A DNA stretch of 13,811 nt from an archaeon (GTDB lineage Archaea > Hydrothermarchaeota > Hydrothermarchaeia > JALTZZ01 > JALUTC01), in the NCBI GenBank assembly GCA_027051265.1, contig JALTZH010000134.1, forward strand, positions 1 through 13,811, in the 5' to 3' direction. The notes under the pieces are model-generated. The model searched no databases. It worked only from the letters and a program-made list of their open reading frames with translations, and was not told where the DNA came from. A program made the translations under genes and the position numbers. This document shows positions 1 to 8,574 of this stretch, piece after piece (position 1 is the first letter of the stretch; every line of letters begins with the position of its first letter).

Positions 1-297
1 GAAAGGATTCAAACCTGCCTCTTTTAAAACAGTTCTAAACGTTTCCTGATGTAGTGTAGGTGTACAATGTGATGTAACAACTCTGTTAAGCTTATGTTTT
101 TTGATAGCTTCTTTTATTTGATTCCTCCCTGGATCTGAGCATAAAAACATGTTCTCTTCTGAAACAATAACGTTTGGTAATTTTTTCGCATATTCTACAA
201 TTTCCTTTATGTTTAAAACGCCACCAATATTTTTACCACAATGACATTGGAAAAAACCTATTCTTAATTCTTTATCATTCTTATCTTTTTGACTCAT
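1..297 (-). CDS. hdrA: HdrA-like protein, N-terminal domain (gene cut by window edge)
   Basis: Only the first 99 codons are inside the window; the gene runs off the left edge. The residues match the N-terminal Fe-S domain of heterodisulfide reductase subunit A: a CHCG motif at residues 18-21, a cysteine at 53 in FLCSDPG and one at 78 in SHCTPTLHQETFR, the position where HdrA usually has CSP. In HdrA this domain carries a [4Fe-4S] cluster in front of the FAD domain. The ATG overlaps the TGA of the upstream hdrA-mvhD gene as ATGA, and a GGAGGT ribosome-binding site lies just upstream inside that gene, so translation is probably coupled. It is the third HdrA-like gene in the operon. Whether it is a full HdrA with FAD and ferredoxin domains cannot be seen here. 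Confidence 0.85.
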   Translation of the reverse strand, partial: MSQKDKNDKELRIGFFQCHCGKNIGGVLNIKEIVEYAKKLPNVIVSEENMFLCSDPGRNQIKEAIKKHKLNRVVTSHCTPTLHQETFRTVLKEAGLNPF

Positions 298-2342
298 TTA
301 CCAACCTCCAATTTAGGAAGAGATATTATCTTCTTATGAAATTCAACAAGTTTCTCATAGAGTTTATAATAATCAGCATTAGTTACCTTTATAATATCTA
401 TACGTTCCTTTTCAACACCAATTGCATCTAGTATATCTTTACATATTCCTACTAGATACGTTGCGTATTCGTTTCCTTTTAGATAATGACATCCGTTTTC
501 AAGACATCCTATAAGAAGAACACCATCAGCTCCTGAGCTCAAGGCTTTAAATATATCCAACATTCCCACCCTGGCTAAACATGGTACTGGAATGATAAGG
601 TAACTCTCTGAATATTTTAATCTTTTGATTCCAATCATATCTAACGCAGCATAACCGCATTCATAACATACAAAAGTTGCAATCTTTTTATCCATTTTTG
701 CTTCCTTAATTAACGTTTCAATGTATTGTAACATCTGTTCCGTTGTATAACCTTCAAGTTGAGCTGCTCCGGTTGGACAATTTGCAACGCATGCTCCACA
801 CGATTTACAATTCTCTACCAATACTCTAGCTTTCTCACCATCTCCCGTTATAATCATTTCAATAGCTCTATGGGGACATACTTTATAACATATTTGACAA
901 CCTATACATAATTTCTCATCAATAACACTAGGGGCTCTTGGTCTTAATCTAGGCAGAAATACTTCTGTTGCAATCTTTTTGGCAGTAGCTTTCGCTTCTA
1001 TTATACAATCTTCGATACTTTTAGGACCTGTTGAGCTTCCTATAACGTATATACCTCTTTTTCTTGTTTCAATTTCTCTTAACTTATAATAGAGTTTTTT
1101 GAAAAAGTTATGTTCGTCCAATTCAACATCTAATATTTGTGATAAATCTTTATTAGTATCTGGAGCTTTTAGAGCAGATGAGAGTACAAGAAGATCTACT
1201 TCAATATCTTCAACAACGTTTTCCAAGGTATTTTCTACCGATAATTTTAGTACTCCATTTTTCTCGGTAACGTTTGCAACCTTTCCTCGTATAAATTTTA
1301 TACCCAATTTTCTAGCTTCATTGAACAACTCCTCAGCCTTCCATATTGTTCTTATATCCATATATCCTATAAAAACTTCTTTCCCTCTCTTTCTAAGTTC
1401 TATAGCATTCTCAAGTGTATAGATACAACACATTTTTGAACAGTAATTGTAAAATTTTTCATCTCTTGATCCTACGCATAGTTGCATGAAGATTCTATTC
1501 GCTTTTATATCTTCGTTTCTCATCAATTTTTCGGATAATTCAAGTTGTGTTATAACATTTGGTACTCTTCCATATTTGAGATATGTGATATCAAACGGTT
1601 TCCATTCTTCAATACCTGTCGCAATTATTATACATGGGACTCTAAAATTCATTATTTCAATAGTATTATTCTCTCGTCTAATTACAGTTACGGAATAATT
1701 TCCAAATTTTCCCAATACACTTGATACCTCAGCGTTTGTTATTATTTTAGTTTTTCTTAAATTTTTTATAATATTATTCAGAAACTCTTTACCAGAAACA
1801 TTATACGGATAAATCTTTGGTAATCGTTCTATAATTCCTCCTATTCTTTCATTCTTTTCTATTATAATAGGTTCAAATCCCAATCTTTCAAGACATTCAG
1901 CAACTTTTAATCCTGAAACTCCTGCCCCTATAATTAAAACGTTCTTGTTTGGCTTAATCTCTTCTACTATGGTTTCTTCTTTAATGTTCTTCATCTTTTC
2001 GATAGTAGCTTTTATCATAGCTTTGGATTTCTCATATGAAAGTTTTTTATCACGATGAACAAAAGCAACATGCTCTTTCAAATTTACTATAGAGAATGGA
2101 ACCGATAAAGTAACGTTTTTCAACATGTTTCTAAACGTTCTTTCATGGAACTGTGGTGAACATGCGGCAATAACTAATTTGCTTATATTATTCTTTTTTA
2201 ATTCGCTCCATGGCTCTTTATCAATGCATATTGCATTTCTAACAAATACCTTTACATCATTGTCAGAGATTTCATCCCTAAGCTTATCAAAGTCTAAATC
2301 AATTACACCGTTACATCTACATATTATTACACCAATTGACAT
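294..2342 (-). CDS. hdrA: HdrA fused to an MvhD-like domain (682 aa)
   Basis: Electron-transfer flavoprotein of a cytoplasmic heterodisulfide reductase-type complex. Domains in order: N-terminal Fe-S domain (C8, C10, C39, C61 in AACSP); FAD domain starting with GAGVSG at 139-144; the HdrA-specific cysteine cluster (QLCVGSRD, then YCSKMCC) around 290-310; two ferredoxin [4Fe-4S] motifs, CIGCQICYKVCP near 478 and CKSCGACVANCP near 511; and a C-terminal MvhD/FlpD-type domain from about 550 (CYECGYAALD, then PVPCLARVG and LIGCLENGCHY). The MvhD-like part suggests electrons enter from a hydrogenase, F420 or formate-type donor module, as in HdrA2-type fusions, or that the protein resembles QmoB of sulfate reducers. 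An AGGTGA site four bases before the ATG overlaps the stop of the preceding gene. The product assignment is firm; the electron donor and acceptor are not known. Confidence 0.93.
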   Translation of the reverse strand: MSIGVIICRCNGVIDLDFDKLRDEISDNDVKVFVRNAICIDKEPWSELKKNNISKLVIAACSPQFHERTFRNMLKNVTLSVPFSIVNLKEHVAFVHRDKKLSYEKSKAMIKATIEKMKNIKEETIVEEIKPNKNVLIIGAGVSGLKVAECLERLGFEPIIIEKNERIGGIIERLPKIYPYNVSGKEFLNNIIKNLRKTKIITNAEVSSVLGKFGNYSVTVIRRENNTIEIMNFRVPCIIIATGIEEWKPFDITYLKYGRVPNVITQLELSEKLMRNEDIKANRIFMQLCVGSRDEKFYNYCSKMCCIYTLENAIELRKRGKEVFIGYMDIRTIWKAEELFNEARKLGIKFIRGKVANVTEKNGVLKLSVENTLENVVEDIEVDLLVLSSALKAPDTNKDLSQILDVELDEHNFFKKLYYKLREIETRKRGIYVIGSSTGPKSIEDCIIEAKATAKKIATEVFLPRLRPRAPSVIDEKLCIGCQICYKVCPHRAIEMIITGDGEKARVLVENCKSCGACVANCPTGAAQLEGYTTEQMLQYIETLIKEAKMDKKIATFVCYECGYAALDMIGIKRLKYSESYLIIPVPCLARVGMLDIFKALSSGADGVLLIGCLENGCHYLKGNEYATYLVGICKDILDAIGVEKERIDIIKVTNADYYKLYEKLVEFHKKIISLPKLEVGK

Positions 2343-2346
2343 AAAT

Positions 2347-2353
2347 TCACCTC
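2347..2353 (-). promoter_or_regulatory. Shine-Dalgarno site of hdrA-mvhD
   Basis: GAGGTGA on the minus strand lies four bases before the ATG and overlaps the TGA of the preceding HdrA-like gene. It fixes the start of the 682-residue protein. The same AGGTGA type of site precedes hdrC, the lipoyl-carrier gene (GGTGA) and the DUF169 gene. Confidence 0.75.
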
Positions 2354-3647
2354 AACAGGTAAACGTTTTATACATCATCATTACAGCCTCTTCACGCCTC
2401 TTTTTAATCTCTTCTGTTATTATTGGATCCAGAAACTTTAAAGTTGAAGAAATTGAAGATTTAATAGTTTCTGGTACATCTCTGATTTGTGAGGCTGTTC
2501 CTGAAATCGATACAATTTTTGAATCCTCATACGCAAATCCGTACTCATCAGTTTCTATACCTAATAATTTAAAAATTTTTAAGCTGGATTTATTTGGAAC
2601 TAATGCAGATGATAAAACAACGAGATCAACATCAATCTCCTGAAGTTTTTGCTCCAATGTATTTTCAACGTAAACTTTTAAATGTTTCTCATGTTCTTCG
2701 ATACTACCTGGTCTTCCTCTTATAAATTTAACACCAAGCTCTCTTGCCTTGGAATACCAAAACTCATATAATCCATAGCTACGAATATCCATAAAAGCTA
2801 TGTAGATATCAATTTCGTTATCTAGTTCTTTTAACATTATCGCATGCTTTAATGCATATAAGCAACATATTTTCGAACAGTATTTGAATCTCCTTACATC
2901 TCTTGAAGCAACACATTGTATCATTAATACTCTGTTTATTTTTCTACCATTTACTATCAAACCTTTTTTCTGCTGAGATAAAATCTTAGCCAATTCGAAT
3001 TGTGTTATTACAAATGAAGACTTGCCATATTTATATTCTATAATATCATAAGGTTTGTATTCTTCAAAACCTGTAGCAACTATTATTCTATCAACAATTT
3101 CTTCAAATATTTTTTCGTTATCGTCAAGGTTTATTGCGTTTGTTTGACAAACTTCTAAACACTTTCCACATTTTTTACAAGATTTTATATCGATAGTATA
3201 TACTGGAGGAATACCTTGATCATTAATATAGATTGCTTTTCTTTTACTATAATTATCTTGAATAGTTACTGGACAAACATCTTCGCATCTTTTACAATTC
3301 ACGCATCTGTTTTCATCTACATATCTTGGTCTCTTGATTATTTCAATTTTAAAACGACCGTTTTCTTCTTTTATATCTTTAATCTCAGATAATGTATAAA
3401 TCTTTATATTTTCTATCGAATGTATTCCAGATCTATAAAAGCATTTCCTTATACCAGTTGAATCTCTACAGGATTGTATACAGTAGGAACAATCTAACGG
3501 ATAACTTGGAAAATATTTATGTAAGTATAAAGCATTTCCTCCAAGATATGGTTCCTTCTCAACTATTATCACATCGTAACCATGATCAGCTAATTCTATT
3601 GATGCCTGTAAACCGGAGAGTCCACCACCTATTACAACAATTTTCAT
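2352..3647 (-). CDS. Short HdrA-like flavoprotein with two inserted ferredoxin motifs (431 aa)
   Basis: An HdrA/QmoA-related FAD protein that lacks the usual HdrA N-terminal Fe-S domain. It starts directly with the FAD motif GGGLSG (residues 7-12). A cysteine-rich stretch follows (CSYCIQSC and a later Cys, about 52-69). Two [4Fe-4S] ferredoxin motifs, CVNCKRCEDVCP near 115 and CKKCGKCLEVCQ near 157, sit inside the flavin domain rather than at the C-terminus. After a second flavin half (IIVATGFEEYKP) comes the HdrA signature QCVASRD then YCSKICC near 246-264. No MvhD domain is present. The start is fixed by a four-base ATGA overlap with the hdrB stop. The length fits QmoA better than full HdrA, and the next gene resembles QmoB, but no qmoC-like membrane subunit is seen. 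It is probably a second flavin site of the same complex. Confidence 0.85.
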   Translation of the reverse strand: MKIVVIGGGLSGLQASIELADHGYDVIIVEKEPYLGGNALYLHKYFPSYPLDCSYCIQSCRDSTGIRKCFYRSGIHSIENIKIYTLSEIKDIKEENGRFKIEIIKRPRYVDENRCVNCKRCEDVCPVTIQDNYSKRKAIYINDQGIPPVYTIDIKSCKKCGKCLEVCQTNAINLDDNEKIFEEIVDRIIVATGFEEYKPYDIIEYKYGKSSFVITQFELAKILSQQKKGLIVNGRKINRVLMIQCVASRDVRRFKYCSKICCLYALKHAIMLKELDNEIDIYIAFMDIRSYGLYEFWYSKARELGVKFIRGRPGSIEEHEKHLKVYVENTLEQKLQEIDVDLVVLSSALVPNKSSLKIFKLLGIETDEYGFAYEDSKIVSISGTASQIRDVPETIKSSISSTLKFLDPIITEEIKKRREEAVMMMYKTFTC

Positions 3648-4501
3648 AACTTTATCATCTCGTACGTTAGATTTTTATCCAATGCCAAATCCTTTTCGTT
3701 CAATCCTAACGAAAGACCTAACAATTGCGTAAAGTATAAGACAGGAATTTTTATGTCTTCGTTGAACGTTTTTACAACTATTTCCTGTTGCATATCTAAA
3801 TTTGAATGACATAAGGGACAAGAGGTAACGATTAGTTCTGCTCCGTTATCCTTACATGATTTTAGTATATTTCTTATAAGTTTTAATGCAGCATCGCTTC
3901 TTGTAATTATTATAGAGGCACCGCAGCATTTTGTTTTGAATCCATAATTTACAGGTTTTCCTCCTATTGCTTCAACTATTTGATCCATTGTTCTAGGATT
4001 TTCTGCAGATTCTATAGAAATCTCACGTGGTCTAACAAATAAGCATCCGTAATACGATGCAACCCTTTTATTTATAGGTTTTTTTACTTTTTGTTTAATT
4101 TTATCGATACCAAAACTTTTTACAAGAAAATCTACCGGATGTTTAACCTCAACGTTTCCATCATATCTAAGACCGATTTCTTTCAAATAATTGTTTATTC
4201 TATTTTTGAACGCTTCATCGTTCTTTATTTTGTAGTTGACGTATGCCAATCTATTATAACATTCACTGCATGGTGTTATAACAATATTCAAGCCACTATT
4301 TTCTGCGAGAGCTAGATTTCTAGCTACTAATAAATATGAGAACTCTACATTTATAGATGGTATTGCTGTTGCTCCACAACAATTCCAATCCTTAATTTCT
4401 TCTAGATTTATACCTAGAGCTTCAAAACTTTTAACCAAACTCACTAGATATGAATTTTCCAAACCTTCTAGCGAGCATCCGGGATATAATCCAAGTTTCA
4501 T
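3644..4501 (-). CDS. hdrB: Heterodisulfide reductase subunit B (HdrB, CCG protein)
   Basis: HdrB is the catalytic disulfide-handling subunit of Hdr complexes. Each of its two CCG domains can hold a noncubane [4Fe-4S] cluster, and both ligand sets are complete: C9, C41-C42, C78-x-x-C81, and C153, C192-C193, C228-x-x-C231. The length (285 aa) is normal for HdrB. The protein begins MKLGLYPGCS, typical of the family, and has no membrane segment, so it should be cytoplasmic. It overlaps hdrC upstream and the short hdrA-like gene downstream, both as ATGA. With both clusters intact it could reduce a heterodisulfide, another disulfide or persulfide, or a lipoyl disulfide; the sequence does not say which. 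Confidence 0.93.
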   Translation of the reverse strand: MKLGLYPGCSLEGLENSYLVSLVKSFEALGINLEEIKDWNCCGATAIPSINVEFSYLLVARNLALAENSGLNIVITPCSECYNRLAYVNYKIKNDEAFKNRINNYLKEIGLRYDGNVEVKHPVDFLVKSFGIDKIKQKVKKPINKRVASYYGCLFVRPREISIESAENPRTMDQIVEAIGGKPVNYGFKTKCCGASIIITRSDAALKLIRNILKSCKDNGAELIVTSCPLCHSNLDMQQEIVVKTFNEDIKIPVLYFTQLLGLSLGLNEKDLALDKNLTYEMIKL

Positions 4502-5028
4502 TTAATCACATCCTTTGTTAAATTATAAAGTTTAACGATATCTTTAACACCATCAATCTTAGATATTTTCATCTTAAGTTTTCCTTTTCTCCAAAGTTTT
4601 ATTCCAAGATTTATATCTCTAACAATTTCTGAAAAATCTTTTCCTCCTTTTAATACAAGCTCGTTTATAAATAGACTTTCGTTTAATCTACCATAGTTAA
4701 GTACATGTTTAAGAAATGTTTCATAGAATGCTTTACATTTTTTAGGTATAATATTTTTTTTCATAGCAATATTTTTTAATGCAAAAGCCATTCTTGTAAA
4801 ACTTATTTTTCTTGGACATCTGTAGGTACAATTGTAACAAGATGCGCAGATCCATATTGTATTAGATTTTAAAACTTCATCATCATATCCTATTTGTAAG
4901 AGATGTATCAATCTTCTTGGACCATAATCCATAACGAATTCCATTGGACAACTACCAGTACAATTACCACATTGATAACATGCGAGTGGATTTTCTCCTG
5001 ATATTTTTTGGACTTGACTTGCTAACAT
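4498..5028 (-). CDS. hdrC: Heterodisulfide reductase subunit C (HdrC)
   Basis: A small ferredoxin-like subunit that passes electrons between HdrA and HdrB. Two [4Fe-4S] motifs are complete: C17, C20, C23, C27 (CYQCGNCTGSCP) and C61, C64, C67, C71 (CASCYNCTYRCP). The rest is helical and polar, with no transmembrane helix and no HdrE/QmoC-type membrane part, so the complex should be soluble. The start is supported by AGGTGAT five bases upstream of the ATG. It is the first gene of the overlapping hdrC-hdrB-hdrA-hdrA-hdrA run; the spacer before it is AT-rich and may hold its own promoter as well as the upstream gene's terminator. Confidence 0.93.
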   Translation of the reverse strand: MLASQVQKISGENPLACYQCGNCTGSCPMEFVMDYGPRRLIHLLQIGYDDEVLKSNTIWICASCYNCTYRCPRKISFTRMAFALKNIAMKKNIIPKKCKAFYETFLKHVLNYGRLNESLFINELVLKGGKDFSEIVRDINLGIKLWRKGKLKMKISKIDGVKDIVKLYNLTKDVIK

Positions 5029-5060
5029 TATATCACCTTAAATAATTAAAAGATTATTAA

Positions 5061-5092
5061 AAATTAAAAAATTATTAATAAAAAATAAAAAA
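5061..5092 (-). terminator. T-rich tract after the lipoyl-carrier gene
   Basis: Read on the minus strand, the 76-base spacer between the lipoyl-carrier stop and hdrC is a run of T tracts (TTTTTT, TTTTTTA, TTTTTTAA) without a clear hairpin. Archaeal RNA polymerase terminates at such tracts. Termination here may be partial, letting some transcript continue into hdrC. Confidence 0.5.
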
Positions 5093-5104
5093 GTCGCGGA
5101 AAGT

Positions 5105-5539
5105 TTACTTTATAACACCTTCCTTTTTTGCTTTTTCAAGTTCTTGTTTATAATATTCAATAGCTTGTTTTATATCCATAAGGTTCTTTAATTCTTCTTG
5201 TAAATTACTGGGTTTAATTGCTATTAACCAATTCTTACCTTTTTCCTTTAATATGTTAGGATTACTTAACGCTTCGTCGTTAACTTCAACAACTTCTCCA
5301 CTTATAGGAGAATACAATTCACCGGTTGCTTTTACAGTTTCCATACTACCAAAAGGTTCACCTTGCTTAACTTCATCTCCAACGTTTGGTAATTCGATAT
5401 AAACAACATCTGCCAAAACTTTTGCTCCAAAATCTGTTATATAAACCCTAGCTTTATCGTCCTCCAATCTTATCATTAAGTAGCTACCGTACTTCTCGTA
5501 GTAGGCATCGTCTGGAAACTCCATATCTTCTAACTTCAT
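5105..5539 (-). CDS. GcvH-like lipoyl carrier protein
   Basis: A 144-residue protein of the glycine cleavage H / lipoate-binding family. The lipoylation site is intact: K70 in METVKATGELYSP, followed by ISGEVVEVN and the conserved NPNILKEKG stretch. The N-terminal half (residues 18-50) matches the H-protein hammerhead fold. A charged helical tail runs from about 118. No glycine cleavage P, T or L genes are nearby. The gene lies between DUF169 and an Hdr operon, the same type of neighbourhood as the LbpA carriers of sulfur-oxidising sHdr clusters. I therefore infer a dedicated lipoyl carrier for this Hdr complex rather than a glycine-cleavage part, though the latter cannot be excluded. GGTGA upstream of the ATG supports the start. 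Confidence 0.85.
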   Translation of the reverse strand: MKLEDMEFPDDAYYEKYGSYLMIRLEDDKARVYITDFGAKVLADVVYIELPNVGDEVKQGEPFGSMETVKATGELYSPISGEVVEVNDEALSNPNILKEKGKNWLIAIKPSNLQEELKNLMDIKQAIEYYKQELEKAKKEGVIK

Positions 5540-5582
5540 ATAGCTTCACCAATAATATATAATTTATTTATAAATTAAAACA

Positions 5583-5610
5583 AATTAAAATAGAATAAAA
5601 TAAAAAACAA
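5583..5610 (-). terminator. T-rich tract after the DUF169 gene
   Basis: On the minus strand the spacer after the DUF169 stop reads as several T runs (TTTTG, TTTTTT, TTTTA, TTTTAA) with no strong hairpin, typical of archaeal intrinsic termination. The AT-rich sequence between it and the lipoyl-carrier ATG could also carry a TATA box (ATTTATAAAT near 5562-5573). Confidence 0.45.
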
Positions 5611-5612
5611 AA

Positions 5613-6374
5613 TTATTTAAAGACTTCTTTTGGAGCCTTTGGTGGAACTCCTAAATCTGGTAGATGTGGTATATCGATACCTCTCTTTCTAGTTTCTTCT
5701 AAACCTTTTATTACCATCTCGATATCTTCTGGTGGTATGGATATTGTCATATCGATATAATGGAATTTACCGTATTCTATTGCACCTGAACATGGTGGTA
5801 CTATTGTTAATCTCTTCTTAACAGATGTCTTAACATAACCATACATGCATGGAATTGCATTAACGCCGAAGGTCATATCTGCTTCAAGTAGTTTTCCATA
5901 GAAACCGTAAGCATGTAGAACTCTAGTACCAGCCCATGGTTCACCAATGATTACAATTGCATCTGGATCAAATCTCATTTTACTTAGAGGTGCGGCTGCA
6001 AAACCGATAAACGTTTCTGGTGTTAATCCTTCGATTTGTTTCTTTCTTAAATCTACCATTTGCTTTGCAATATCTTCACTTGAAGCATATCTAGCAGCTT
6101 GACTTTTTACACCTTTCTCTTCAGGTGTTATACCTAAGGCTACGTTCTCCGATGTACATGCTAGAGATTCTTTTTTAAGACCAACTGCATATCCATGAAC
6201 TGCCAATCTTATTAACTGGCAAGTGTACATGTCTTTGTTTATTATTCTTACACCTTTAAAATCTGCGTCTGATTTACATACCTTAAAACCTACTGGATAA
6301 TATTTCAATTTTAACAAATCCATCAATTTTCTCTCGACGTCTGTCCAGTTAATTGCTTTTACTTCAGCAGCCAT
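5613..6374 (-). CDS. DUF169 family protein
   Basis: A 253-residue cytoplasmic protein that I assign to the DUF169 family (COG2043-type), whose function is not known to me. Family-like features are a YYPVGFKV segment near the N-terminus, the central PDAIVIIGEP strand, and conserved cysteines: C33, C52 (YTCQLIR), C73 (LACTSENVALG), C176 (IPCMYGY) and C195 (PPCSGAIEYG). The cysteines could bind metal or a cluster or take part in thiol chemistry, but the sequence does not show which. AGGTGAT before the ATG supports the start, and a TATA-like box lies 36-46 bases upstream. It is the first gene upstream of the lipoyl carrier and the Hdr operon, all on the same strand, suggesting a linked role in the same redox pathway. 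Confidence 0.8.
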   Translation of the reverse strand: MAAEVKAINWTDVERKLMDLLKLKYYPVGFKVCKSDADFKGVRIINKDMYTCQLIRLAVHGYAVGLKKESLACTSENVALGITPEEKGVKSQAARYASSEDIAKQMVDLRKKQIEGLTPETFIGFAAAPLSKMRFDPDAIVIIGEPWAGTRVLHAYGFYGKLLEADMTFGVNAIPCMYGYVKTSVKKRLTIVPPCSGAIEYGKFHYIDMTISIPPEDIEMVIKGLEETRKRGIDIPHLPDLGVPPKAPKEVFK

Positions 6375-6721: not shown

Positions 6722-7408
6722 ATGGTTGAAATTGGAGGTATTGTAAAATTTACTCTAATAGATTATCCAGGACATGCAGCATGTACAATTTTCTTACAGG
6801 GATGTAATTTTAGATGTAGATATTGTCAGAATGTAGATTTAATTGAAAAAAGGAAAGGTAATATGTCGATTGAAACTGTTTTAGAATTTTTAGATAATAG
6901 AAAAGAATATCTTGATGCAGTAGTTATATCTGGTGGCGAACCTTTAATTCACGAGGATCTTCATGATTTTATTAAAGAAATAAAGGTTCGTGGATTTAAA
7001 GTTAAATTGGATACGAATGGTTATCTCTACCAAAGATTAAAAGACGTTTTACCTCATGTAGATTATGTTGCAATGGATATAAAAGCAAAGAAAGAAAAGT
7101 ATTCAGATGTTGTTGGTGTTAATATTAACTTTGAAAATATCTTAAAAAGTATTGAAATTATTAAAACATACGCAAAAGATTACGAGTTTCGAACAACAGT
7201 TGTACCAGGACTTGTTGAAGAGGAAGATGTTGAAGAAATTGCCAAAACAATATCCGGATCAAAGTTATATGTGATACAAAATTTTAATAACAGAAGAACA
7301 TTAGATGAGAAACTGATGAAAAGAAATCCATTTGATTATACTAAAATGAGAAAATTTAAAGAAATCGCTGAAAAATATCTCAGCAACGTTAAATTAAGAA
7401 ATATTTAA
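6722..7408 (+). CDS. nrdG: Radical SAM activating enzyme, anaerobic NTP reductase (NrdG-type)
   Basis: A 228-residue radical SAM protein. The cluster motif is C28, C32, C35 (CNFRCRYC), preceded by TLIDYPG and IFLQGC, the signature of the archaeal/bacterial NrdG2-type anaerobic ribonucleoside-triphosphate reductase activase. SGGEP at 70-74 is the SAM-binding GGE-type motif, and KLDTNG and DYVAMDIKA strands follow as in this family. It would generate a glycyl radical on its partner by reductive cleavage of SAM. No nrdD is in the window, so the partner is inferred only. The ATG has no ribosome-binding site within the usual distance, which fits a leaderless or weakly initiated message. It lies five bases before the thiolase gene, suggesting co-transcription; the subfamily could also include other radical-SAM activases. 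Confidence 0.8.
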   Translation: MVEIGGIVKFTLIDYPGHAACTIFLQGCNFRCRYCQNVDLIEKRKGNMSIETVLEFLDNRKEYLDAVVISGGEPLIHEDLHDFIKEIKVRGFKVKLDTNGYLYQRLKDVLPHVDYVAMDIKAKKEKYSDVVGVNINFENILKSIEIIKTYAKDYEFRTTVVPGLVEEEDVEEIAKTISGSKLYVIQNFNNRRTLDEKLMKRNPFDYTKMRKFKEIAEKYLSNVKLRNI

Positions 7409-7413
7409 TTTCT

Positions 7414-8346
7414 ATGATGAAAAAAGCCGATATCATTCAAATACTTGAAGATCTTAAAATTGATACAAACTACGTAGTTATCAGAAGAGATCGCGTTATT
7501 CCAACTAGTATAAGATTGTCTGGATTAAATTCTACTAAAAGAAAAATTTTAGAACAAGAATATAACATACGTGTATACTTCTCTGAGAATTTTCAAAACG
7601 CTGCTAAGCTGGTAAATAAGGCTATAAGTAAGTATAAACTGTTTAAACCGAAAGAAAAAGTTATTCTAGGGTATAGTGGGGGGAAGGATTCACTCCTTCT
7701 CTTACATCTTCTTGAACCTTATGAAAGAAAGCTTGGATTAAAAATTATAGCTTTAAATATTGATTTAACAATTGAAGGTGAACGACCATGGAAAGATACA
7801 AGGATAATTGAAGAACATTGTAAAATGTTAGAGATAGATTTCGTAAAAATTACACATGATAACGATTTGGTTAATTTAAAAAAAGCTTCCAGCTATTCGA
7901 CATGCTTTATATGTTCAAACATTAGAAGATTGATAATGTTAAGATTTGCATCTAAACATAATATAAATAAATTAGTTCTTGCTCATAACTTAAACGATTG
8001 TGTAAACGTTTTACTCTCAAGTCTAATTTCTGGAAGATTTAGGTTATTAAATTACATTAAAGAATTTCACGATGCGGAAATACCTATCACAAATAATTTA
8101 AAAATTAAGTTGCCAAAATGTATCATCGTTAGACCCATGCTTGATGTTGAAGAAGATACAATTATAAAAGCATTAAACGAAGTTGAACTTGAATATTTTA
8201 GGGATAAATTGTATTGTAGATATAGTAGAGAGCGAGAAAACTTCTATAAAAAAGTTATAAACAATCTTTTCGAAGAATTAAAGAAAAAAAATCCAAACGC
8301 TAGAAAAAATTTAATAATAACTATAAGGAAGATGCTTAACAATTAA
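7414..8346 (+). CDS. TtuA/TtcA-like PP-loop tRNA thiolation enzyme
   Basis: A 310-residue ATP-pyrophosphatase (PP-loop) protein of the tRNA 2-thiolation family. SGGKDS at 88-93 binds ATP and activates the tRNA base by adenylation. C164-x-x-C167 (TCFICSNIRR) and C268 (LYCRYSRE) are placed like the three [4Fe-4S] ligands of TtuA. AHNLND (190-195) and RPMLDVEEDTI (240-250) are further family motifs. Unusually, the zinc-finger cysteines of typical TtuA at both ends are absent: the first 80 residues (RRDRVIPTSIRLS and a helical part) contain no cysteine, and the C-terminus is a basic helix. The next gene, 15 bases downstream, is a ubiquitin-like sulfur carrier, the natural partner of TtuA. The modified base (s2T at position 54, s2C or s2U) cannot be told. 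An alternative start is the next codon (ATG-ATG). Confidence 0.82.
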   Translation: MMKKADIIQILEDLKIDTNYVVIRRDRVIPTSIRLSGLNSTKRKILEQEYNIRVYFSENFQNAAKLVNKAISKYKLFKPKEKVILGYSGGKDSLLLLHLLEPYERKLGLKIIALNIDLTIEGERPWKDTRIIEEHCKMLEIDFVKITHDNDLVNLKKASSYSTCFICSNIRRLIMLRFASKHNINKLVLAHNLNDCVNVLLSSLISGRFRLLNYIKEFHDAEIPITNNLKIKLPKCIIVRPMLDVEEDTIIKALNEVELEYFRDKLYCRYSRERENFYKKVINNLFEELKKKNPNARKNLIITIRKMLNN

Positions 8347-8361
8347 TAATTTAATAATTTT

Positions 8362-8574
8362 ATGATAAGAGTTAAAGTAAAAATCGGTCGAGAAATAAAT
8401 GAAATTGAAATGGAAGAAGATTCAAGTATACTTGATTTGTTAAAAAAATTGGGATATAGTAGAGAAGAGGTTCTTGTTCTTAAAAATAAAGAAGTTGTAA
8501 TAGAAGAGGAAAAACTTAAAGATGGAGATTTTATCGAAATTATTAGAGCAATATCTGGAGGATTTTTTTCATAA
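8362..8574 (+). CDS. MoaD/ThiS/TtuB-like ubiquitin-fold sulfur carrier with C-terminal tail
   Basis: A 70-residue beta-grasp protein (VKVKIGREINEIEM, SILDLLKKLGYSREEVLVL, LKDGDFIEIIRAISGG). In this family the C-terminal Gly-Gly is adenylated by an E1-like enzyme and loaded with sulfur as thiocarboxylate, or conjugated to proteins (SAMP). Here GG is at residues 66-67 and three more residues, FFS, follow before the stop, so the glycine is not terminal. Either a protease trims the tail, or the tail is recent and impairs function. The gene lies 15 bases after the TtuA-like thiolase, which supports a sulfur-donor role in tRNA thiolation. The region immediately after its stop resembles a decayed IS200-type transposase in the same reading frame, so the tail may derive from an insertion. 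Confidence 0.8.
   Translation: MIRVKVKIGREINEIEMEEDSSILDLLKKLGYSREEVLVLKNKEVVIEEEKLKDGDFIEIIRAISGGFFS

Follow-up and report, generated by a model that had tools for sequence, protein, structure and literature searches.

A GcvH-type lipoyl carrier encoded within an hdr operon of a dsrAB-bearing archaeon: a candidate partner of HdrB

Results

We analyzed a 13,811-base window that is the entire contig C134 of an archaeal genome (G000; 1.46 Mb, 95% complete) and found that the gene for a GcvH-like lipoyl carrier lies among genes for a heterodisulfide reductase (Hdr) complex, together with a gene for a DUF169 protein. The window was compared with G002, a genome of the same order (100% complete), G001, of the same genus (81% complete), and G044, a distant archaeon that has only the domain in common with G000 (92% complete). 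The reading we favor, with a rough probability of 55%, is that the lipoylated carrier is the substrate of HdrB in an anaerobic Hdr complex linked to dissimilatory sulfite reductase (Dsr), that its lipoyl group is made by a lipoylation kit encoded in the same genome, and that the DUF169 protein is a partner of the complex.

The gcvH-like gene lies within a conserved hdr operon

Read from position 6374 to position 1 on the minus strand, the window encodes DUF169, the GcvH-like protein, HdrC, HdrB, an HdrA of 431 aa, an HdrA-FlpD/MvhD fusion of 682 aa and the start of a third HdrA (Table 1). Profile searches and alignment confirmed the preliminary description of this DNA, which had placed DUF169, a GcvH-like protein with a lipoyl lysine, HdrC, a complete HdrB and HdrA-MvhD in this order on one strand. 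It had also counted three HdrA-like genes; two of these are full genes, and the third amounts to 99 aa because the window is a whole contig that ends there. The 431-aa HdrA has the FAD domain with an inserted ferredoxin and is without the N-terminal domain and the C-terminal part. Overlaps of 4 bases join hdrC/hdrB, hdrB/hdrA1 and hdrA2/hdrA3, hdrA1 and hdrA2 are separated by 9 bases, 70-80 bases lie between the genes upstream of the hdr block, and ggtga-type ribosome sites precede several of the genes. The hdr borders and the ribosome sites are consistent with the DUF169, GcvH and hdr genes forming one operon.

The complete form was observed in G002, where ten genes are arranged as DUF169-GcvH-HdrC-HdrB-HdrA1-HdrA2/MvhD-HdrA3/MvhD-ferredoxin-HdrC2-HdrB2. 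Identity between G000 and G002 is 55-76% over the aligned parts of the hdrC, hdrB and hdrA genes, 49% for DUF169 and 72% for GcvH. Since the third HdrA fragment of the window matches the N-terminal end of the 819-aa HdrA-FlpD (HdrA3) in G002 at 76% identity, the window operon very probably continues as it does there, and since the arrangement is kept in another genome of the order, it is not due to chance. The presence of the gcvH-like gene inside the hdr transcription unit of both genomes argues for the favored reading. The preliminary description had set this layout apart from that of sHdr, which has two HdrB/HdrC sets, but the complete G002 operon has two such sets as well; the contrast was partly an artefact of the contig end that truncates the window operon. 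Searches of the window for tRNA or Rfam RNA found none, and a plasmid tblastn search with HdrB as query returned two unrelated records only.

The carrier is the only detected GcvH and groups outside glycine-cleavage H proteins

The carrier is the sole protein of G000 found with the GcvH model, scoring 112 against a cut-off of 117. Its Lys70 sits in ETVKA and is the same in all 15 archaeal H-like proteins that were aligned. The carrier contains no cysteine; the GcvH of G044 contains one. GcvP (PF02347) had no match in G000, G001, G002, G014 or G044, in a search that did not take in GcvT or lipoyl E2 subunits; the preliminary description, which had seen no glycine-cleavage partner in the window, was thus upheld for GcvP in G000 and G002. 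With the only GcvH inside the hdr operon and no GcvP, the carrier probably feeds the Hdr complex and not glycine breakdown.

In an unrooted tree of 63 GcvH rows, whose deep forks are weak, the carrier groups with its counterparts in G002 and G014 (support 100/99). A 38-row clade holding every H protein found adjoining gcvT or gcvP (support 100/95) leaves it out, as the preliminary description would have it. For this position outside the glycine cleavage system (GCS) clade, the 100/95 branch is better support than the approximately unbiased test, which rejected a single clade of the window protein and GCS-adjacent rows; its row set splits the GCS clade, making it weak evidence. A tree uniting the HdrB-linked GcvHs of G000 and G002 (with G014) and of G044 had a log-likelihood 8.1 above the free search, and the alternative was not rejected.

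None of approximately 40 other archaeal GcvH loci had an Hdr gene adjoining on the same strand; at one of them, in G031 (L037), GcvH and an HdrB-like gene are about 3.4 kb apart on opposite strands. A contig scan with the carrier as query found bacterial GCS H proteins, biotin/lipoyl domains and one Woesearchaeota locus, none of them Hdr-linked. Relatives of the class, such as G006, have other orphan lipoyl carriers with no Hdr nearby and no GcvP over cut-off; in G006 (L046:7857-11299) a GcvH of a different clade is flanked on one side by a gene resembling lipoate ligase and on the other by LipS-like radical S-adenosylmethionine (SAM) genes.

Lipoylation genes are present in the genome

Judged from sequence, G000 holds a complete archaeal lipoylation kit of LipS1, LipS2 and a bipartite LplA/LplB, so that the dedicated ligase and LipS genes that the preliminary description had set against gcvP/gcvT were indeed found. 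LplA and LplB are encoded side by side on contig C252, as are LipS1 and LipS2 on contig C208. LipS2 and LplB scored over the NCBIfam cut-offs, and LipS1 fell just under. All of these genes lie apart from the hdr cluster, on other contigs; in G044, LipS1/S2 are encoded beside HdrCB-GcvH. A genome with a full kit should also encode a protein to be lipoylated, and the GcvH model picks out the window protein as the sole candidate. Besides the LipS1/LipS2 pair, another radical SAM paralogue resembling LipS1 was seen in G000 (L151:3002-3979) and G002, and in G014 beside a LipS2-like gene.

Parts of the operon recur with dsrAB in a distant archaeon

In G044, hdrC-hdrB-gcvH-lipS1-lipS2 lie in tandem on one contig, and another contig carries dsrK-dsrM-dsrH, dsrAB, hdrB-hdrC, hdrA genes and DUF169. 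The adjacency described for the window is therefore seen again in G002, and a distant lineage has it in the form HdrCB-GcvH-LipS1S2; this gene order again favors the lipoyl carrier as a partner of HdrB.

A link to Dsr had been missed in the preliminary description. G000, G001, G002 and G044 each carry dsrA and dsrB, those of G000 scoring over the cut-offs of both NCBIfam models. No AprA over cut-off was found in these four genomes, with weak SdhA-type matches only in G000 and G002, and McrA (PF02745) had no match in any of them or in G014. In addition, both CCG motifs are kept in all compared HdrB proteins of G000, G002 and G044. The single GcvH without GcvP, the lack of McrA, the occurrence of dsrAB without AprA and the retention of both CCG motifs all speak for the favored reading.

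DsrC with both C-terminal cysteines is encoded twice in G002 and once in G001. In G000 the only such protein is a divergent, DsrC/TusE-like one (L178:3892-4212), which ends in IPKCGCL and not PKPTGCV, and no DsrC was detected in G044 at its 92% completeness. In G001 (L152:2819-6799), genes for LipS1, LipS2, a ThiF-like protein, DsrH, DsrE and a DsrF-like protein stand in a row, so that lipoyl synthase genes adjoin sulfur-relay genes; this proximity, together with the 8.1-unit likelihood gain in the GcvH tree, also points toward a lipoyl carrier working with Hdr and Dsr.

Two side observations concern G044. In its MvhD gene (L107:3075-3476) the codon for the second cysteine of the first motif is an in-frame TGA (ACMK*GYAAADLAG), as in selenocysteine-containing MvhD/VhuD, and a SelD-like AIRS-family gene (L034:238-1179) lies 1.2 kb upstream of hdrC-hdrB-gcvH.

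The DUF169 type was found in three of the genomes searched

The window DUF169 protein scored 110.6 bits against a PF02596 cut-off of 27, and its five cysteines, reported in the preliminary description, were verified. Cys52, Cys73 and Cys176 are invariant in 11 family members and Cys195 is kept in most, a conservation that hints that there may be a metal site. This DUF169 type was found in three of 394 archaeal genomes (G000, G002 and G044), with a gap in E value from 4e-50 to 9e-17, and all three carry an HdrB-linked GcvH and DsrAB. Its confinement to these genomes, and its place beside hdrA, hdrBC, dsrAB and dsrMK in G044, argue for a partner of the proposed complex. Sequence searches gave no relative in the PDB. 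A structure model with a pLDDT (predicted local distance difference test score) of 85 had no convincing fold match, the best being at E 0.4 in Foldseek and Z 4.4 in VIA-align (thiolases). We found nothing in the literature tying DUF169 to Hdr or lipoate, and the earlier suggestion that it delivers a sulfur or C1 group gained no direct support.

Table 1. Genes of the hdr operon in the window, listed in the direction of reading.
Feature	Position	Strand	Properties
DUF169 protein	5613..6374	-	253 aa, 5 Cys; PF02596 E 1e-31
GcvH-like lipoyl carrier	5105..5539	-	144 aa, lipoyl Lys70, 0 Cys; PF01597 E 9e-29
HdrC-like	4498..5028	-	176 aa, two 4Fe-4S motifs; TIGR03290 E 1e-26, under curated cut-off
HdrB-like	3644..4501	-	285 aa, two complete C-CC-CxxC (CCG) motifs; PF02754 two stretches; TIGR03288 E 6e-65, under curated cut-off
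Short HdrA, QmoA-like domain layout	2352..3647	-	431 aa; HdrA2 model positions 141-514; HdrA of 5odc E 2e-77
HdrA-FlpD/MvhD fusion, QmoB-like domain layout	294..2342	-	682 aa; HdrA2 model E 4e-129; FlpD PF02662 residues 554-674
Third HdrA, first 99 codons, gene cut by contig end	1..297	-	HdrA2 N-terminus E 3e-32

Divergent neighbors of the operon (6722-8574, plus strand) encode an NrdG2-type radical SAM activase, a TtcA/TtuA-like tRNA thiolation enzyme and a ThiS/SAMP2-like small sulfur carrier.

Discussion

HdrB noncubane clusters cleave disulfides in methanogens. We propose that in G000 these clusters would act instead on the lipoyl dithiol/disulfide, or a persulfide, of the GcvH-like carrier, which would replace the heterodisulfide of coenzymes M and B (CoM-S-S-CoB). 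The complex would be a soluble flavin/iron-sulfur assembly of HdrC-HdrB, the QmoA-like HdrA, the QmoB-like HdrA-MvhD and the third HdrA; judged from G002, it would also include a ferredoxin and another HdrCB pair. The lipoyl group on the carrier would be made by LipS1/LipS2 and LplA/LplB, whose genes lie elsewhere in the genome, electrons would pass between ferredoxin-level carriers and the lipoyl couple through the HdrA/Qmo-like flavoproteins, and the couple may exchange electrons or sulfur with the DsrAB/DsrC system in an anaerobic, Dsr-linked sulfur metabolism. DUF169 would be a dedicated cysteine-containing partner. Lipoylation of Lys70, the pairing of HdrB with the lipoyl group and the coupling to Dsr are predicted from the genes, and the direction of electron flow and any electron bifurcation in the complex are likewise predicted. 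Precedents come from sHdr with its lipoyl partner LbpA (PMC6067878) and, by a citation in PMC10504309, from DsrC with Flx-HdrABC.

Several observations weigh against this proposal. The search for lipoyl-dependent partners covered GcvP only. The G014 GcvH (L033:8795-9226), of the same clade as the carrier, adjoins unrelated genes on its visible side, and G014 is without DsrA and without this DUF169 type; with no Hdr, DUF169 or DsrA in sight there, the GcvH clade is not strictly tied to Hdr/Dsr, and this locus is possibly a second context for the carrier. G001, at 81% completeness, lacks both GcvH and DUF169. In G044 the GcvH-linked HdrCB and DUF169 are on separate contigs, and in G000 and G002 dsrAB is on a different contig from the operon, so that the Dsr link in those two genomes is one of co-occurrence only.

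Sulfur oxidation by a lipoyl-Hdr system is established, with LbpA serving sHdr as its lipoyl partner (PMC6067878). An oxidative pathway of this kind, in which an Hdr-like complex converts lipoyl-bound sulfane sulfur to sulfite as happens in sulfur oxidizers such as Hyphomicrobium, is unlikely here, although much is shared with it. As in sHdr-LbpA (Cao et al. 2018, PMC6067878; PLoS Biol 2023, PMC10332631), a GcvH-like lipoate-binding protein is encoded within an hdr operon, LipS1/S2 and Lpl ligases are available for maturation, and two HdrBC sets are seen in G002; the DsrH, DsrE and DsrF-like genes beside lipS1S2 in G001 also fit. In contrast to the one short sHdrA of sHdr, however, there are three HdrA including HdrA-MvhD fusions, neither the window operon nor that of G002 has a DsrE or TusA gene, a DUF169 gene is present, and dsrAB is already there for sulfur or sulfite chemistry. 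The carrier also lacks the two conserved cysteines of bacterial LbpAs, an absence that the eLife paper (PMC6067878) allows for some archaeal LbpAs.

It is less probable again that the carrier serves glycine cleavage as an ordinary H protein, or relays lipoyl groups to a 2-oxoacid dehydrogenase, and came to lie in the operon by chance. Its near-threshold score, its intact lipoyl lysine and the limits of the partner search would allow this; however, no genome with the operon has GcvP, the protein lies outside the clade of GCS-adjacent H proteins and HdrB linkage is found in two distant lineages.

Only a slim chance is left for a QmoAB-HdrBC complex of sulfate respiration that passes electrons to adenosine 5'-phosphosulfate (APS) reductase and has GcvH and DUF169 only as bystanders in its operon. 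A short HdrA and an HdrA-MvhD stand beside HdrBC as in type II QmoAB/QmoAB-HdrBC, a likeness judged by domain layout only, DsrAB is encoded in the genome and QmoAB-HdrBC is a known substitute for QmoABC (PMC10504309). Against this, no AprA over cut-off occurs in G000, G002 or G044, the operon here has GcvH, DUF169 and a third HdrA in addition, and GcvH remains HdrB-linked in the distant G044. The CoM-S-S-CoB reductase of a methanogen or alkanotroph, suggested by homology of HdrA, HdrB and HdrC to the methanogen enzymes and by the two CCG motifs of HdrB, is largely refuted by the absence of McrA at completeness of 95-100% and by HdrB and HdrC scores far under the curated CoB-CoM cut-offs.

The preliminary description had placed the lipoyl group opposite HdrB in a distinct pathway; we favor the pairing, but the idea is not new, as lipoyl-Hdr partnerships are already known (PMC6067878) or have been proposed (PMC9723716). 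In the Culexarchaeia Ehe cluster, the genes for GcvH and HdrA2B2C2/HdrB likewise lie together, in an anaerobic archaeon whose CoM/CoB pathway is incomplete, and a lipoyl disulfide was proposed as the partner of HdrB (PMC9723716). Compared by description and not by sequence, Ehe differs in having a group 4 [NiFe]-hydrogenase, CdhA and SdhA, none of which was seen next to the G002 operon or within the window, whereas the operon here has a QmoA-like HdrA and DUF169. FlxABCD-HdrABC of Desulfovibrio, as cited in PMC10504309, similarly joins an Hdr complex to a small redox-thiol protein, DsrC, in a Dsr organism; here the partner would be a lipoyl protein, and the operon has no FlxABCD genes. What is new, as far as the searched literature goes, is the DUF169-GcvH-HdrCB-HdrA-HdrA-HdrA operon, the reappearance of parts of it together with DsrAB in two archaeal lineages far apart, and the absence of GcvP, McrA and AprA from these genomes.

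Known uses of lipoate are in 2-oxoacid dehydrogenases, in glycine cleavage and in sHdr sulfur oxidation. The sole detected GcvH-type carrier of a genome, encoded in an hdr operon alongside a lipoylation kit and dsrAB and without GcvP, suggests a role for lipoate in an anaerobic energy metabolism of archaea that is linked to Dsr. The finding gives DUF169 a first functional context and makes testable the long-open question of which disulfide the Hdr complexes of non-methanogenic archaea act on. More tentatively, the lipoylated carrier might be a DsrC-like co-substrate that joins sulfite reduction by DsrAB to a soluble, possibly bifurcating Hdr/Qmo hybrid, with DUF169 as a sulfur-transfer or assembly factor. 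If so, dissimilatory sulfite metabolism would have a branch that depends on lipoate, and G044, with no detectable DsrC, would use a lipoyl protein in its place.

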